Source: Candidatus Cloacimonetes bacterium HGW-Cloacimonetes-3 (GTDB taxonomy: Bacteria; Cloacimonadota; Cloacimonadia; Cloacimonadales; Cloacimonadaceae). Taken from it: DNA of 64,000 nt. The stretch covers positions 124,001 to 188,000 of the forward strand of contig PHBO01000002.1 of the NCBI GenBank assembly GCA_002840645.1. The letters are read 5' to 3'. Made by a program: the position numbers and the translations under genes. Below are positions 3,886 to 49,800 of this stretch, in pieces. The notes under the pieces are model-generated. The model ran no database searches. It saw only the letters and a program-made list of their open reading frames with translations, and had not been told where the DNA came from. Every line of letters begins with the position of its first letter. Position 1 is the first letter of the stretch.

Positions 3886-5739
3886 CTAAATCTTGGCTTC
3901 GATGCTCATGCTGAAGTCTCTTCCGGCTTCAGGAAAGCCGTATTCACCCTGATAATCTGCATCAAATATATTATCCACCCCAAATCTGAAACTAAAAGAT
4001 TGCCAGGGAATCAGAAGGTGGATATCATGCAACCAGTACTCTTTTAGACGGTGATAAACACCCATATCGTCCAGTGAATAGCGCATGCCTCTGAAGGAGG
4101 ATATAGTTGTTAAAACACAATCTGCTGGCAGCTTGAGCTGATGAGAAAGCTCAAGGGAGTGCTTAGGGCTTTCAGTAAGGCGGTAATCGCTGCTCTTCTT
4201 GATTTCTAAAAAGGAATAATCTGCCTTAAACTCGTAGCATGGGATGGGGGAGAGGATGATGCCAAGCTCTGCTCCTTCGGAAATGAACTTATAGATGTTT
4301 TGATACTTGTTGCCCTGTAAATCTATCAAGTTCCGACAGATATTGTAGAATCCGCTACAGGAAATGGTTACAGCATCCAACACCAAGGGTTGCAAGTGGC
4401 TAAGCTCCAGCTTAAGGGAACTTTGGTGCTTCAAATCCGGATTACCCTTATCATAAGAAAACAACTGACGCATAGTGGGTGGAGCTGTGTTTATCCCCAT
4501 GGCAAAGGAGCTTTTGCCTCCCGAGTGCGAAGTATAAATGACACCCAAAGCAGGTTCTGCAAGCAAACCGCTACTAATCCCCAAGCCGCTTGTGAGGCGG
4601 ATATTGTCTTTCACAATTCGTTCATATTGGCAGAATACGCTGTGGCTCTGTAACTTATTGGTTTTCCAAACAGGATATGCACCGGTATCTTTGCGACGGT
4701 TGCTTCGCAATTCATAACGATAACCAAAGTCCCAGATACTGTTGCTATTGCTTTGATAACGAAGGCGGGGAGCAAAGCCCCAGCTTTGGTTATCCATGCG
4801 GGAATCCACGTTTATATACTGAGACTGGGCATCGTTATATTCCAAGTATCTATCCCCACCGCCATCATAGCTTAACAATGAAGTGAGAACTGTGTTGCCG
4901 GAAAGCCTGAATTCACCTGTGAATCCCGCATTATAGCGCATCCAGTCCTTGTACTGCCGATACTTACGTTCATAGATAGAGGAGGGGATATCCTTATGAT
5001 TCATGCCGCTATAGCTGACATCCAAGCCAAGCTTATGAAAGGTAAATACATCTGCGTTAATACTGCTGCTGAAGGTGTATTGCTCTTTGGCACTGAAGTT
5101 ACGAACCCCTCCGTTTTCGGTGAAGGTGGGGCGGAACTTCTTAGATAGCATAAAGCCGTCACTACGCAAACCGGCTATCCCAATCCGGTAATTCCAGGCT
5201 GGGAAGCCGTGAGAAGAACTGATTTGTAATTCCTGCGTGTTGTTGCGCTTGATGGTGCTATTAAGGCTTAGCCAATATTGGGTGGACGGTTCACTTGTGA
5301 TCAGGTTTATCACCCCACCCATGCTTCCTGAACCATATAAAGGGGAAGCAGGCCCCTTAACTACCTGAATTTCTTGTATATCCAGCGTGGAGAGCTTACT
5401 GATATCCACATTGCCAAAGTAGCCGTTGTTGATCGGGCGTCCGTTAATCATGATCTTCAGTTCATGCTTGCGAAAGCCCCTTAGCTTTAAATTGCTTTCG
5501 TCTTTGGTTCCTACACTGGCACTAATACCAACAATATTGCTTAATGCTTCCCTTAAAGAAAGCACATCTTTGCTATCTTGCATGCTTATCTGCTGAAGAG
5601 AGCCAATCGCTTCGGAAGGCTTCCCCACTACAACCCTAATTGTGGGCAGATGGAAGGTTTTCAGGCTGTCCGGATCCGGTTTAGCAAATATGCTCGTGCA
5701 GATTATGCAAGTTATCAGAAAACTGATTAGTTTATGCAT
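3886..5739 (-). CDS. TonB-dependent outer-membrane receptor
   Basis: A 617-residue protein with a signal peptide (residues 1-19), a plug domain (about 50-150, with the typical VVKGPASPLYGSGSMGGVIN) and a beta-barrel that ends in the classic receptor C-terminus (VDNIFDADY...GRDFSMSIEAKI). It would carry a scarce ligand across the outer membrane using TonB/ExbBD energy from elsewhere in the genome. It starts 8 bases after the stop of the upstream lipoprotein gene and has no clear ribosome-binding site of its own, so the two are probably translationally coupled and under the same leader RNA. The ligand is not evident from sequence. The neighbours with a molybdopterin-type fold and the riboswitch-like leader point to a cofactor or metal complex rather than a sugar. 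It is at the short end for the family and no frameshift is seen. Confidence 0.9.
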   Translation of the reverse strand: MHKLISFLITCIICTSIFAKPDPDSLKTFHLPTIRVVVGKPSEAIGSLQQISMQDSKDVLSLREALSNIVGISASVGTKDESNLKLRGFRKHELKIMINGRPINNGYFGNVDISKLSTLDIQEIQVVKGPASPLYGSGSMGGVINLITSEPSTQYWLSLNSTIKRNNTQELQISSSHGFPAWNYRIGIAGLRSDGFMLSKKFRPTFTENGGVRNFSAKEQYTFSSSINADVFTFHKLGLDVSYSGMNHKDIPSSIYERKYRQYKDWMRYNAGFTGEFRLSGNTVLTSLLSYDGGGDRYLEYNDAQSQYINVDSRMDNQSWGFAPRLRYQSNSNSIWDFGYRYELRSNRRKDTGAYPVWKTNKLQSHSVFCQYERIVKDNIRLTSGLGISSGLLAEPALGVIYTSHSGGKSSFAMGINTAPPTMRQLFSYDKGNPDLKHQSSLKLELSHLQPLVLDAVTISCSGFYNICRNLIDLQGNKYQNIYKFISEGAELGIILSPIPCYEFKADYSFLEIKKSSDYRLTESPKHSLELSHQLKLPADCVLTTISSFRGMRYSLDDMGVYHRLKEYWLHDIHLLIPWQSFSFRFGVDNIFDADYQGEYGFPEAGRDFSMSIEAKI

Positions 5740-5747
5740 ATTGCAGT

Positions 5748-6569
5748 CTAATAGTCGGTCATCACAGTCCGTGTGTAGCTGCTCAAATCGGTGGGCACCG
5801 GGAATGTGATGTTTACTGTAGCGTGGTCGGCAACTGTGAAATTGTGACTCTGCACCTCAAGAGTAGTAATTTCCAGCCTTGCAAGTCGTTTAAACTTCTT
5901 TTGGCTTCCGGTCATACTACCGTTAAAACTTGGGAAAGTGGTGGTTTCGGTATTAAGAAAGTAATAAGCATCTTGGATTTGCTCCGGAGTATAATCCACG
6001 GCGTAGCCATCACCTGCGACCAGTTTAACGGAAGTGTAGTTTGTAATCCCTTGCAGCAAATCAGAAAGCTTTATTGCATCTTCAGCATAGGAAGCCCAAT
6101 TAGTCATGTTGTGTTTTGGTAAGCTATGCAGCTCAGCCAGTTTTGTGCTACCTCCTGCCACTATATCCACTTTGCGGTATAAACGAAATGTACCGGTGTT
6201 CCGCACCTTGAAGGCACCCGGTAGGGAAGCATCGGCAAACCAAGTCTTTTTGTTGTCGCTGGGGATAAAGAAGCCATCTTTGAAGCTTTCCCATGATAGG
6301 TCATAACCGGCATTCACGCTTTGGCGGGGGCTCCAAGCATCTTCATCTGCACTTACAATCTCATAGGCAAACAGGCTACGGTAATCTGTTACATCCTCTG
6401 CATCGCTGGTGATAAGATCGTGCACGGCAGCTTGGGATATGAACTGATCCAGTTTGTAGCCATAGATGTTTAGATCAGTGGGGTTGTTGTTTGTGTTGTT
6501 GTCCTTTTCGCTGCAAGAGCTAAGTACAACAGCCACAAGTATAAACAAGACATAAAGAAGCTTTTTCAT
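5748..6569 (-). CDS. Lipoprotein with sulfite-oxidase (molybdopterin) fold-like domain
   Basis: The ORF-track start at 6812 is too early. The ATG at 6569 follows GGAGGT and opens a lipoprotein signal peptide with lipobox LSSC (Cys19), giving 273 residues. After an Asn-rich linker the protein has stretches resembling the oxidoreductase molybdopterin-binding fold (PF00174 type): LSDLLQGI followed by VKLVAGDGYAVDYT and a closing FKRLARLEI. An earlier block (YRSLFAYEIV...LPGAFKVRNTGTFRLYRKVDIV) may be a first half-repeat. No cysteine remains besides the lipid-modified one, so the usual Cys ligand of the molybdenum is absent and catalysis by the standard mechanism is unlikely. Its gene is first in the operon with the TonB receptor. 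I infer a periplasm-facing ligand-binding lipoprotein; the fold assignment is from motif reading only. Confidence 0.7.
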   Translation of the reverse strand: MKKLLYVLFILVAVVLSSCSEKDNNTNNNPTDLNIYGYKLDQFISQAAVHDLITSDAEDVTDYRSLFAYEIVSADEDAWSPRQSVNAGYDLSWESFKDGFFIPSDNKKTWFADASLPGAFKVRNTGTFRLYRKVDIVAGGSTKLAELHSLPKHNMTNWASYAEDAIKLSDLLQGITNYTSVKLVAGDGYAVDYTPEQIQDAYYFLNTETTTFPSFNGSMTGSQKKFKRLARLEITTLEVQSHNFTVADHATVNITFPVPTDLSSYTRTVMTDY

Positions 6570-6576
6570 TTTTTTA

Positions 6577-6711
6577 CCTCCATGAAAAGCAGGAGGCTTA
6601 CAGGGCTGATATTTCCACTGTAGCCTTTCCAAAGGGAGGCATGACCGTTTCCCGTCATACCCTATCGGTGGCAGTCCATGCAACAAATGTTTAGGATCAG
6701 CCACTCGGCTG
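6577..6711 (-). promoter_or_regulatory. Candidate riboswitch in the lipoprotein/TonB leader
   Basis: Read on the minus strand, the leader folds into a closed domain. The outer stem GGCTGAT/ATCAGCC (6702-6696 with 6610-6604) encloses CCAC/GTGG, TGAC/GTCA around a GAAA-type loop, and GCCT/AGGC. A competing hairpin, CAGCC-gagt-GGCTG at 6711-6698, uses the same strand as the outer stem, so the two cannot coexist. Downstream, CCTCC (6596-6592) can pair with the GGAGG ribosome-binding site (6581-6577). An aptamer, an anti-stem and a hidden ribosome site are the expected parts of a translational riboswitch. The class is not assigned: it lacks clear cobalamin, TPP or SAM boxes. A molybdenum-cofactor type is a guess prompted by the genes. 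Confidence 0.55.
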
Positions 6712-6741
6712 AGTACGAAATGCAAATATGCCCTGTTTCTG

Positions 6742-6817: not shown

Positions 6818-7705
6818 ATGCGGAATATCATAATTATCTTATGCATTGCACTGATATGTGTGAGTGGAACTGCAATACAGATAACAGACAGCAAACAAAA
6901 ACAGATAGAGTTTAGCTATGATAAGCTCTGCAAAGAGGAATTAACAGAGTTTAGCACCAGCCGCAATAAAAATGCCAAGGATATATCAGAAACATGGCGT
7001 GGAATAGCTTTACTACCTTGGTTGGATAAGCTGGGATACAGCAATTGGCATACCTTGAGATGCGTAAGCTCCGATGCATACGAAGTGAAACTACACCGCA
7101 CAGAATTGGATGCAATGCCCGCTTATATTGCCCTGGTTCACGAGACTGAATTTCTGGCAGAAAGCGATTTACGGGTAGTTTTTCCGCAAACAAGAGATAA
7201 CTTGTGGCTGAGGGGCATATCCAAGCTGTATCTTGAACCCTTTGAGGGCGTAGCCCATCCACGACAATTGTTTATTTGGGAGGATAACCAGTCCGGTTTG
7301 GCTTGGGAAAACAGCTTACTTACGCTGGAAAAACTAATGCACCAAGCATTTCGCCAGAACAGTGGAACAGTTACTTTTTTAGATTCCAAGATGCACACTA
7401 TATCTTTGGAATACCCCGCTCAATTAGGCAAGGCAAGTATATCCACCGAATTAAACGGAACACTTAGCTTATATGGTATAACCTTGATTGGCTATATGCA
7501 GATTGAGGATATAATCTATTTACAGTGCGGTCCCTACGCATACGTGAAAAGAGCGTATCTCCCTTCCTTGCAGAGTATAGGAACTGCTTTGCTATGGGAC
7601 TGGGCTACCATAAACCGCTACGAAATAACAGGGATAGAGCGCACAAGCTTCTCCACCAGCCCCAAACAGGATTATCGTGATACAAAGTGGATTGAATTGG
7701 AATAA
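6818..7705 (+). CDS. Secreted protein with sulfite-oxidase (molybdopterin) fold-like domain
   Basis: A 295-residue exported protein with a signal peptide at about residues 1-19 and an AGGAG site 11 bases before the ATG. Residues 59-142 read like the core of a molybdopterin-binding oxidoreductase domain: TWRGIALLPWLDKLG (compare WxGVPLxxLL), then VSSDAYEVKL (compare S-DGY), then a block like LRVVFPQ and LWLRGISKLYLEP (compare PLRLVVP and the closing strand). The second half (about 170-290) may be a diverged repeat of the same fold. It is transcribed away from the lipoprotein/TonB operon, from the same short control region. Enzymatic activity is doubtful because no clear molybdenum-ligand Cys motif is seen. 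It may bind the TonB ligand in the periplasm; this is inference. Confidence 0.65.
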   Translation: MRNIIIILCIALICVSGTAIQITDSKQKQIEFSYDKLCKEELTEFSTSRNKNAKDISETWRGIALLPWLDKLGYSNWHTLRCVSSDAYEVKLHRTELDAMPAYIALVHETEFLAESDLRVVFPQTRDNLWLRGISKLYLEPFEGVAHPRQLFIWEDNQSGLAWENSLLTLEKLMHQAFRQNSGTVTFLDSKMHTISLEYPAQLGKASISTELNGTLSLYGITLIGYMQIEDIIYLQCGPYAYVKRAYLPSLQSIGTALLWDWATINRYEITGIERTSFSTSPKQDYRDTKWIELE

Positions 7706-12273: not shown

Positions 12274-13932
12274 ATGAAAAAGGCAATGTTTCTATTAGTG
12301 TTTTGTCTTACAGCCTTGTGGCTGGCAGCACAAAGCCCCGAGTGGCTCTGGGCAAAGCAAGCTGGTGGACCAGGTGGCGAGTATGCCTATGATATTGCCA
12401 TGGACAGTCAGGGCAACCAATATGTGACCGGGTATTTTTATGGAACCGCCACTTTCGGGTCCTACACGCTCACTTCCAGCGGTGAGTTTGGTATCTTTAT
12501 CGCCAAAATGAATGGATATGGTCACTGGTTATGGGCTGTGAGCGCTGGAGGGTCATTTTATGAGTATGGGAAAGACATAGCTGTAGATGGATCTGGAAAC
12601 ACCTACCTCACAGGTTATTTTTGGGGAGCCGCCATTTTCGGTCCTTACACCCTCACATCCAGCGGACCAGGTGATATCTTTGCCGCAAAACTGGATTCCG
12701 AAGGCAACTTCCTTTGGGCAGTAAAAGCAGGAGGGACAGGCATTGACGAAGGTAGCGGCATTGCAGTGGATGGGAATGGCAATACCTTGCTGACAGGATG
12801 GTTTCAAAACACAGCAAGCTTCGGCACTTACACCCTCACCTCAGGCGGAAGTGATGATATCTTCGCCGCAAAACTGGACTCAACCGGAAACTGGCTTTGG
12901 GCGGTGAGAGCGGGTGGGACAAGCGGAGCCCGTGGGATTGGCATCGCCGTGGATGGGGATGGCAATGCCTTGATGTCCGGTGCATTTTGGGGCACAGCCA
13001 GCTTCGGCACGCAAACCCTCACCTCAAGCGGAGGTTCTGATATCTTTGCCGCCAAACTTGGTACCAGCGGAAACTGGCTCTGGGCAGTCAAAGCGGGAGG
13101 AGATGGAAGTGACTTTGGGCGGGGTATTGCCGTGGATGGGTATGGCAACGCCTTCCTCACCGGGCACTTCAGCTCCTTAGCCACCTTCGGTTATTCTACC
13201 CTCCACTCAAGCGTAAATCAGGAAATCTTCGTCGCCATGTTGGACGGATCCGGCTTTTGGGTTGGGGCTTTGAGCGCGGGAGGGACATTAGTTGATTATG
13301 GGTCAGGCATCGCCGTGGATGGATCTGGCAATGTCTACCTGACCGGCGAATTTGAAGGTACTGCCAGCTTCGGTGACAACACACTCACTTCAAGCGGAGG
13401 TTTTGATATCTTCGCCGCCAAGCTGGATCCCGGTTTCAGCTGGCTCTGGGCTGTTCAAGCTGGAGGGACACAGAATGACCGTGGGTACAGCATCGCGGTG
13501 AATGAGTCTGGCAATGCTTGTCTGACGGGGGATTTTGAAAGCACATCCAGCTTTGGTACTCTCACCCTCACCTCAAACGGGTATGTTGATATCTTCATTG
13601 CCAAGCTTAGTAACTCAACCTTGGTGTCAGATGAATACGGAGTGCCCCAAGCTCACTTTTCACTGGGGCAGAATCACCCGAATCCGTTCACTAATTCTAC
13701 CAGCATTGAACTTGAAGTGAGTGATGCCAAATCTATATATGAAGTATCCGTATATGACCTGCGGGGAAGGCACATCTGCACTCTGCACCGGGGTATATTG
13801 CCAGCGGGAAAGCATGCCTTTACCTGGAACGGAAAGGATGCCTCAGAAAAAGAGCTTTCCAGTGGAGTGTACTTTTACCGGGTATCAAATGGCATTTCCT
13901 CTCAAGTAAAAAAGATGATTTATGTAAGGTAA
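12274..13932 (+). CDS. Secreted SBBP-repeat beta-propeller with C-terminal sorting domain
   Basis: A 552-residue exported protein (signal peptide 1-20). Residues 24-445 consist of seven repeats of about 60 residues with the pattern WLWAVxAGG, GIAVDGSGN, xLTGxFxGTASFG, TLTSSG, DIFAAKLD, the SBBP/beta-propeller type, so a seven-bladed propeller is likely. Repeats are also similar at DNA level, which suggests recent internal duplication. The last 90 residues (HPNPFTNSTSIELEV, VSVYDLRGRHI, LPAGKHAFTWNGKD, SGVYFYRVS, KKMIYVR) form the sorting domain used by FCB-group secretion systems. A surface or extracellular role is expected; the ligand is unknown. It follows structured element copy 1 and appears monocistronic. 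Confidence 0.85.
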   Translation: MKKAMFLLVFCLTALWLAAQSPEWLWAKQAGGPGGEYAYDIAMDSQGNQYVTGYFYGTATFGSYTLTSSGEFGIFIAKMNGYGHWLWAVSAGGSFYEYGKDIAVDGSGNTYLTGYFWGAAIFGPYTLTSSGPGDIFAAKLDSEGNFLWAVKAGGTGIDEGSGIAVDGNGNTLLTGWFQNTASFGTYTLTSGGSDDIFAAKLDSTGNWLWAVRAGGTSGARGIGIAVDGDGNALMSGAFWGTASFGTQTLTSSGGSDIFAAKLGTSGNWLWAVKAGGDGSDFGRGIAVDGYGNAFLTGHFSSLATFGYSTLHSSVNQEIFVAMLDGSGFWVGALSAGGTLVDYGSGIAVDGSGNVYLTGEFEGTASFGDNTLTSSGGFDIFAAKLDPGFSWLWAVQAGGTQNDRGYSIAVNESGNACLTGDFESTSSFGTLTLTSNGYVDIFIAKLSNSTLVSDEYGVPQAHFSLGQNHPNPFTNSTSIELEVSDAKSIYEVSVYDLRGRHICTLHRGILPAGKHAFTWNGKDASEKELSSGVYFYRVSNGISSQVKKMIYVR

Positions 13933-46863: not shown

Positions 46864-49800
46864 ATGGAACAAGTAAGCTTTGTAGATTATCATATTCAAT
46901 ACGCTAAAGCATTGGCAGAGATGTGGAATCGCAGCGCCAGTGGTTGGATGGGCAGAGCTTTTAACAGCAGTGAAGAAAAGGTGCTGGATGAAGAAGGCAG
47001 GGGGAGTTATCTGAATCTCTACCTGGCAGTAAAGGGTAACAAAGTTTTAGGATATGCTAAACTGACCAAGTATTCTGAGGAGAAGGATGTAGCATACATA
47101 GAGCTTATTTCTGTCGATCCCGAACATCATGGGACAGGTATTGGCAAGATACTGATGCAGAAATGCGTGCTTAGGGCGGCGGAACTTGGCTACCAGCGCA
47201 TCGATCTTTTCACTTGGGCAGGCAATACCAAGGCAGTGCCACTCTACAAGAAATGCGGGTTCTTTTGGGAGAAGATGGAATCCCAAGCAACACACTTGAT
47301 GAACTTCATTCCCGGCTTGCTTAATAACGAACTGCTGAAACCATACTTCGAGTTCTTCCATTGGTACGACGACAACAAGAGACCCCTGCTAACAGAACCT
47401 GACGGCAGAAAGGTAAACGGCTTCGATTTATACGATTACATCTGGGAGAAAGATGGTAAAAGGCTGCATATATGCTTTGAACGATGCGGCAGAGGCATTG
47501 TTGCAATAAACACTTCGGATTTTGATATCCAGATTGAGATTGCAGATGCCAAACCTGTGTTTGGTGATAGCTACTCTGCCAATTACCAACTAACCAATCA
47601 CACTTGCGAACCGGTTGAGATTATGCTTAAAGGTGCGGATGATGATGTAGTTAGGAATGAATTTCATATCTCTGAGACGGTAACGGGCAGTATCGAAAGG
47701 GAATCAGAGTTCTTTATTGCTCCTGTCAACCGCACTTTAACGGAGTGGGAAAGCTGTCCGGGGCTAAAAACAATAGTATCCTGGGCGGGCAAAGAGATAG
47801 TGATGAAGACAGGGCTGCATATTCAGTATCCGCTGTCAGTGAATCTGCGGATGCAAAGTAGCTTGGTGATTCCGGGTAGGCAGGATATCATGTATCTGAA
47901 TGTGCATAATCACTTCCCAACGGCTTGTTCTTACCACATAGAGCTCCCCGGGGAGGCACCTCTCACATTACTGCAAAACAACTTTGAGATCAGTTTACAG
48001 GCAGACGAGAAAGCCTTTATTCCGGTTGATTACATTTCCCAAGGTTCCCTGGTCTACAATCCCCAGATTAAAGTTATGGCATTTCCGGATAGCGGTAATA
48101 AACTTGAGTTTGAAGTGGAGTGCTTTACTACCATGTCAGCTCTAAATTCGATGTCTGCTAAGAATATGCAGGAAAGGATATCCCTGCTTAACGGGCAATA
48201 CTCGGTGTATATCTTAAAAACATCCAACAAAAACTGGGGTGGCTTTCACTCCATTTTTGGTTCACGTTTCGATTTCTGTGCCCCACAGATAGGCTTGCCC
48301 TATAGTGAAGAATTCGATACCGAGCTTCCCTACGATATACAAATCGAAGAACACGGCTCTATGCTGCAACTCACCTTGAAGTATCTCTCCAAAGACAATG
48401 CAGGTGTGGATTTCGGATACATATACAGCTTATATCCCACCGGTCTGATGGAGCTTCGTTTGAAGATTTACGCCATCCCTGAACCCCAAAACAAATACTT
48501 TGCCTATCTTAAGCTTGGCATAAATGAGAAAAATATAAGCTTCGAACAGAATGGGAGTTTAGTGCAGGTGGAAGAGGACTTTCCCGAGACTTATTTGAAC
48601 AGTTTTGCAAAAGACAGCTTAAGCGGAAACTGGATGTATTCCCAGATAGATGATGCCACCAGTGCGGTTATCTGGAATCCCGAATTCATGCCTAAACTTG
48701 GGAATTATTGGCTGTGTTGGGAATTGGATCTGAATAAAATCCAAAGCATGGAACATCAGGAATTGCTGGTTGCAAGTATGTATCTGGATATATTCCGCAA
48801 TTGCTATCAAACCCGAAATGCAGCGTTAGGTTACCGTAAGCCTGTAGAGATTATTCAGCCTACTCTGGAACTCGTCGTGAACGAAGGGAATCCCATTTTA
48901 ACTAAGCCATATCAGGTGAAGCTTATCCAGCATCTGGATAGGGGACTTCGTGGGAAATTCAAGCTGGATACTGAGGATGGGCTTTCTCTTGCACCACAGG
49001 TTACTGCAAGCGAAGCTGATAACATCAGGGAAGTCCGGTGGGATGTGGAAAATCTACCGGAGCAAGCACTTGAATTGGTTACATGTGATGCTGCTCTATC
49101 CAGTGTAAGCGTAAAGCGGTCTCAACTTTGCTTAATGGGTAGGGGAGAGGTAAATGTGTTTAACCGGGACAAGCTCCTTATTGCCGAAAACGGCTGTTTA
49201 AGCATAACCTCCGCCAAGGATGCAAGGCTTCCGGGGCTAATCTCACTGAAATACAATGGAGCTGAATACCTGGATGCCGGTTATCCGGACTATGCGCCGA
49301 AAAGCTACCACAACCCCTATCAGGGAGGATTGAGTATAATCCCTAATCAGCTTAGAGCATCCGTGCTTATCCACGAAACACACGATACAAGCAGCATAAA
49401 AGTACAAGACCAGTTTGGGAACTTGTGGACCGGCTTGGCTATAACCACTACCATAAGCAATTTCGAGCCGATGAAAGGGCTGATATTCCGTCAGTGTTTT
49501 GTGATGCACCCGTCTGTTCCGGTCCTGGTGCTGCTTACAGAATTAGTTCGCAACAACGGTTGGGCGCAGTTTGTTGGCTTTAACTGCTCTACATCCTATA
49601 AGCACGAAGAGAACATCCGGGATTTACAGCTCATGTTCCCCAAAACAGATAAACAGTGGCTTACTCTATTCCCCGGGAAAGAGCAGATGGGATTGCAGGA
49701 TTACTACTACAACATGGCTGCAAAAGGTATGGACACAGACGCTTATATGCAAGTGTTTCACCTCAGTAGGTGTTCTCATTATGTCCACATGGATAGTGCG

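Follow-up and report, generated by a model that had tools for sequence, protein, structure and literature searches.

A compact Moco/Tuco riboswitch before a lipoprotein-TonB operon of Cloacimonadota points to a candidate import system for the Mo/W cofactor

The leader of a lipoprotein-TonB receptor operon of Candidatus Cloacimonetes bacterium HGW-Cloacimonetes-3 is clearly a member of a known riboswitch family, the Moco/Tuco family (RF01055), in its compact form. It was studied in a stretch of 64,000 nucleotides (contig PHBO01000002.1, positions 124,001 to 188,000), referred to as the window. As a target of this riboswitch the lipoprotein-TonB operon is apparently new, and the controlled system looks like a candidate for an unreported import system for the Mo/W cofactor. 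Import of the cofactor by this operon under feedback control by Tuco/Moco is the best explanation of the data and a fairly probable one. The aptamer, its elements and the neighbouring genes are as follows.

6606 to 6722, minus strand: Moco/Tuco aptamer (RF01055), P3-less, cmscan 62.7 bits
6711 to 6707, minus strand: 5' strand of P1 (CAGCC), aptamer element
6704 to 6694 with 6677 to 6668, minus strand: P2, aptamer element
6662 to 6635, minus strand: P4 with GAAA loop, aptamer element
From 6625, minus strand: 3' strand of P1, aptamer element
5748 to 6569, minus strand: lipoprotein (LIP), 273 aa, first gene of the operon, with conserved lipobox cysteine and homologues in 57 genomes
3886 to 5739, minus strand: TonB-dependent outer-membrane receptor, 617 aa, PF07715 Plug 3e-20
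6818 to 7705, plus strand: SUOX2, exported, SUOX/PruR-like domain, 295 aa, divergent gene homologous to SUOX2 of ECF operons

The Rfam cmscan search assigned positions 6722-6606 of the minus strand to RF01055 with 62.7 bits, the gathering score being 36 (E = 1.1e-12 over the whole window, 1e-14 in a 601-base search), and the match is full-length, covering all model positions 1-135. The P3 columns of the model are deleted in the alignment, where a short CGATA linker (6667-6663) takes their place. A short linker replaces P3 in nearly all phylum aptamers compared, and a P3-like stem is present in the Syntrophomonadaceae relative L134. The window and its relatives share the conserved junction segments of RF01055 (CCGAG, CUAA, GGAAAGG) as well as the GNRA tetraloop of P4 (GGAAAC). 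For the arms of P1, P2 and P4, compared in 34-36 related leaders without correction for kinship, native pairing was better than permuted pairing, and for each stem none of 5000 permutations reached the native energy. Folding of the leader was better than that of its shuffles for the minus strand (z -2.83) and not clearly better for the plus strand (z -1.42). No second RF01055 copy was found in the source genome.

Moco RNAs were divided by P3 in Regulski et al. 2008, the P3-less ones going with tungsten-cofactor organisms, a tie that is a correlation and not a binding result; the response of the E. coli Moco RNA was established genetically, not by direct binding (PMC2408646). As to the tungsten-cofactor gene of the P3-less Tuco subtype, the source genome has a copy of AOR, nominally a tungstopterin enzyme, with both AFOR domains (AFOR_N and AFOR_C). 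Judging from the sequence, the ligand would be Moco/Tuco. The expression platform comprises the following segments.

6618 to 6625, minus strand: GGCUACAG, 3' strand of P1 with extension, partnered by the 5' strand of P1 (6711-6707) or by 6603-6595 (alternative-helix permutation test)
6595 to 6603, minus strand: CUGUAAGCC, can replace the P1 5' strand in pairing with the P1 3' strand and shares its final two bases with the anti-Shine-Dalgarno (pairing comparison)
6592 to 6596, minus strand: CCUCC anti-Shine-Dalgarno, kept in most lipoprotein leaders and paired with the Shine-Dalgarno in the minimum-energy fold
6576 to 6581, minus strand: GGAGGU ribosome-binding site, with 6 nt between GGAGGU and the ATG at 6569 (from the sequence)

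The pairing of the P1 3' strand with the anti-Shine-Dalgarno segment is a conserved, covarying alternative to P1 in 31 leaders. At this position the native helices had a mean of -11.9 kcal/mol compared to -8.3 kcal/mol after permutation (sd 0.40; 0 of 10000 permutations), a figure that is inflated by the kinship of the 31 leaders. Compensation is exemplified by L050, where GGCUGCAG/CUGCAUGCC replaces the GGCUACAG/CUGUAAGCC of the window. From the pairing logic, a translational OFF switch is predicted, including the direction of switching. If the cofactor is scarce, GGCUACAG would pair with CUGUAAGCC, so that part of the anti-Shine-Dalgarno would be occupied and GGAGGU open; with the cofactor bound, P1 would form, the anti-Shine-Dalgarno would be freed and the ribosome site closed. 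For E. coli moaA, OFF switching was shown genetically (PMC2408646). An intrinsic terminator as the switch was rejected, since the leader contains no terminator-like site.

An earlier sequence-only reading had proposed a cis-acting translational riboswitch before the TonB operon, which is supported by these data. Its three pairings are all present as sequence and are meaningful only in the sense orientation of the operon (minus strand), but only CCTCC/GGAGG survives the comparison with relatives. This sequestrator (CCTCC 6596-6592, GGAGG 6581-6577, the latter 7 nt upstream of the ATG at 6569) is found again in the majority of homologous leaders. The 7-bp stem (GGCTGAT 6702-6696, ATCAGCC 6610-6604) was rejected as a switch: one such repeat was observed compared to a mean of 0.54 per shuffle, at least one occurred in 35% of 1000 dinucleotide shuffles, and it is not kept in six related leaders. 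Its 5' arm GGCTGAT sits within the P1/P2 strands of the aptamer, and both arms of the proposed competing hairpin (CAGCC 6711-6707, GGCTG 6702-6698), which the relatives do not support, lie inside the same strands. In the homologous leaders, whose alignment had been suggested as a check, P1, P2 and P4 are kept, the CCTCC/GGAGG pairing is present in most, and the 7-bp stem is absent from the six compared.

The same reading had regarded the element as unassigned and perhaps as a divergent or new class, and would have taken an unambiguous match to an established riboswitch as evidence to the contrary; exactly such a match was obtained with the Rfam cmscan it had suggested, which refutes this part. 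A new class resting on the 7-bp stem together with the CAGCC/GGCTG hairpin could refer to repeats that do exist in the sequence. Against the full-length RF01055 match, which led to its rejection, and with a 7-bp repeat at chance level and missing in relatives, its probability is negligible.

For the protein encoded first in the operon, the lipoprotein, no Pfam family was matched, and searches of Pfam, NCBIfam, PDB sequences and plasmids were uninformative. Its structure was predicted with a pLDDT of 91, and a structural comparison of the model gave PruR as the best PDB fold matches, with weak values (E 5e-3, TM 0.28/0.52). The profile match to SUOX2 is weak as well (hhalign probability 27), and both weak similarities weaken the reading as cofactor import. 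The following gene encodes a TonB receptor according to the Plug domain (3e-20) and a barrel similar to TonB receptor models over the length. The NCBIfam model nearest to it is that of the B12 receptor, at 93 bits compared to a cut-off of 600, a score that does not make it a BtuB equivalog.

The divergent SUOX2 of the window matches SUOX2 of locus L035 (blastp 7e-54), and SUOX2 occupies the same divergent position in L047, L049, L050, L052, L053 and L055. Foldseek returned PruR (7kom, E 2e-7) as the top match of its predicted structure (pLDDT 79), with YedY at E 9e-4, and the SUOX2 alignment contains no invariant cysteine, i.e. no conserved metal-ligating cysteine. Accordingly modelled, the protein has a predicted SUOX-type fold without the metal-ligating cysteine. 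Elsewhere in the window, positions 12274-13932 of the plus strand encode an exported protein in which repeated AVDGSGN...FGT.TLTSSG units and a sorting-domain-like C-terminus were recognised by eye.

Across the phylum, RF01055 is present in 75 of 125 genomes and in 56 of the 57 lipoprotein-bearing ones; the latter count, the full-length match and the covarying platform together support cofactor import. Among the loci inspected, the first recognisable gene after RF01055 was the lipoprotein in 22, an ECF S component in 10, an aldehyde dehydrogenase in 10 and AOR in 6. The ECF operons comprise the S component, two ATPases and a T component together with SUOX-fold exported proteins and, in some operons, a phosphodiesterase. 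In L035, the lipoprotein-TonB pair and the ECF operon each have a riboswitch of their own, the two being divergent (G047:C3:48954-49078 minus, 49391-49509 plus). L089 and L090 combine the lipoprotein, S component, SUOX2, a phosphodiesterase-family fragment, SUOX1, two ATPases, the TonB receptor and EcfT in a single run, and L153 and L155, from outside Cloacimonadota to judge by their record titles, contain the same kinds of genes with a full phosphodiesterase behind RF01055. In L153 the transporter operon is followed by MobB; L155 has a protein with a similar beginning. The lipoprotein-TonB half and the ECF half thus belong together, several operons having both behind a single riboswitch, and their occurrence in one run, with MobB in L153 and apparently in L155, supports the import of a cofactor. 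The same holds true for the matches of SUOX1 and SUOX2 members to the molybdopterin-binding domain PF00174 (1.6e-12 and 2.7e-10) in combination with the PruR-like structure of the window SUOX2. The genes for the lipoprotein and the TonB receptor are missing from several Bacillota versions of the operon, which fits cells that have no outer membrane. The import reading is weakened by the source genome itself, in which the ECF operon is located on a different contig and lacks an RF01055 of its own.

Some further observations concern these loci. The MobB at the end of the L153 transporter operon (L153:10560-11303) carries a C-terminal Fe-S domain, which suggests a post-import step. RF01055 precedes an NAD-type aldehyde dehydrogenase in ten loci (L038, L041, L043, L045, L048, L054, L058, L063, L065, L007); the one copy checked, that of L041, is an L-glutamate gamma-semialdehyde dehydrogenase (TIGR01236), an enzyme that needs no Mo/W. 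Such dehydrogenases may replace tungsten aldehyde oxidoreductases under cofactor shortage. By eye, a MoaD/ThiS-like gene was seen downstream of AOR in L042 and L067 and a MoeB/ThiF-like gene in L067, despite which the genome of L067 (G082) is without MoaA, MoaC and MoeA.

The use of the cofactor is widespread in the phylum, with AOR (PF01314) in 83 of 125 genomes, whereas its synthesis appears to be rare. The MoaA C-terminal domain was found, weakly, in two of the 125 genomes, MoaC in three and MoeA in two, by six-frame profile searches in which 11 of 14 control genomes were positive. Eighty of the 83 AOR genomes, among them the single-contig genome G001, are without MoaC and MoeA. Since a cell that depends on a pterin-bound metal but does not synthesise the pterin has to acquire the cofactor, and since control by RF01055 ties the TonB/ECF system to that cofactor, these counts support cofactor import. 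Further support comes from G058 and G092, the only two genomes in which MoaA, MoaC and MoeA occur together, which have no lipoprotein and carry RF01055 before WtpA or TupA, and from outside the phylum, where seven S-component genomes lack MoaC and MoeA and four of these, of the Bacillota type, have AOR. An 'Armatimonadetes' genome (bin.262; L142, G133; JABMPU010000011.1) was not counted as an independent outside case; the coordinates and scores of its AOR are identical to those of the Cloacimonadota genome G070, and the title of the record looks wrong.

Other counts weaken the reading. MoaC and MoeA are also found in the genomes of L153 and L155, fourteen AOR genomes (three of them with MoaC) have neither lipoprotein nor S component, and seventeen genomes with lipoprotein or S component are without AOR. 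About a dozen AOR genomes lack MoaC as well as lipoprotein and S component, many of them being fragmentary. The Fisher P values for co-occurrence ignore phylogeny and are descriptive only. As a separate observation, molybdopterin oxidoreductase frames of about 900 aa that contain a single in-frame TGA, resembling selenocysteine formate dehydrogenases, occur in G079, G078, G081, G082, G086, G087, G089, G093, G096 and others.

The pathway genes in L153 and L155 would also fit a system whose cargo, under the same riboswitch, is the metal, as free or chelated tungstate or molybdate, and not an organic cofactor. Molybdate transporters are known under Moco riboswitches (PMC2408646), the tungstate transporters WtpA and TupA stand under RF01055 in two phylum genomes, and the S component matches PF09819, a family named for cobalt transport. 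However, the metal alone would be useless to the 80 AOR genomes without MoaC and MoeA, dedicated tungstate ABC transporters occur in the genomes that keep the pathway, and the operons include pterin-fold proteins and MobB. Metal import is thus considered unlikely. Even less likely is another pterin-like or corrinoid cargo under the same riboswitch, with SUOX proteins that sense it as PruR does. PruR binds reduced pterins and not Moco (PMC13259868), and the TonB receptor comes nearest to B12 receptors, but the control by a Moco/Tuco riboswitch and the linkage to MobB argue against such a cargo, and no signalling gene of the DcpA type was seen in the operons inspected.

For the preferred explanation, cofactor import, the lipoprotein and the TonB receptor would form the outer-membrane part of an importer whose cargo, as suggested by the gene content, would be a pterin cofactor of tungsten or molybdenum or a late precursor of it. 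On the inner side, the system would consist of the ECF transporter (S component, two ATPases and T component) and the SUOX-fold exported proteins, which probably bind the pterin, and the phosphodiesterase of some operons may trim a dinucleotide form. For the stronger statement, that TonB receptor, lipoprotein, SUOX-fold carriers, phosphodiesterase, ECF transporter and, in some operons, MobB constitute a dedicated bacterial importer of the complete Mo/W-pterin cofactor under feedback by a Tuco-type riboswitch, serving much of an AOR-using, synthesis-lacking phylum, the chances appear evenly balanced.

Moco is generally viewed as made by each cell for itself. In the open-access papers searched, no bacterial Moco uptake system was found, and no category for Moco uptake appears in a survey of RNA regulons (PMC3766115). 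Caenorhabditis elegans obtains Moco from its bacterial diet, by a membrane-crossing route that is still obscure (PMC9793310). Among the genes reported under P3-less Moco RNAs in Syntrophomonas wolfei, some have no assigned function and others are putative sulphite oxidases (PMC2408646); an importer of this kind might explain them. If true, the Mo/W cofactor in Cloacimonadota would be a commodity that is traded like a vitamin, in the manner of B12, and the riboswitch-controlled importer would name genes to test.

A close parallel is the cobalamin riboswitch, which represses BtuB, the TonB receptor for that cofactor, alongside which an inner-membrane B12 transporter exists. There a cofactor riboswitch represses the TonB receptor for the same cofactor, as is proposed here, and the receptor of the window is nearest to the B12 receptor model, albeit far below its cut-off. 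The riboswitch family is a different one, and ECF and SUOX-fold proteins are found here instead of BtuCDF (the btuB riboswitch is a subject of PMC11162775). Compared to the Moco RNA motif RF01055 (Regulski et al. 2008, PMC2408646), the window shows the full consensus with P1, P2, P4 and the GAAA tetraloop and lacks P3, and a translational platform involving P1 was proposed for E. coli moaA as well (PMC2408646). The targets named there are molybdate transport, pterin synthesis and cofactor-using enzymes, and the text mentions neither TonB nor Bacteroid(etes), whereas the riboswitch of the window controls a lipoprotein-TonB receptor pair. The WtpABC/TupABC tungstate transporters share the riboswitch in two phylum genomes, but import only metal and occur in genomes that retain MoaA, MoaC and MoeA and have no lipoprotein. 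PruR is a periplasmic pterin-binding SUOX-fold protein without metal-ligating cysteine (PMC13259868), which the exported SUOX2 of the window resembles in its Foldseek-assigned fold and in having no conserved metal-ligating cysteine; PruR partners the signalling protein DcpA, whereas the relatives of SUOX2 sit in transporter operons. With ECF transporters that use PF09819 S components, the system shares an S component, two ATPases and a T component in one operon, and it differs from them in its SUOX-fold and phosphodiesterase partners, its control by RF01055 and its putative substrate.
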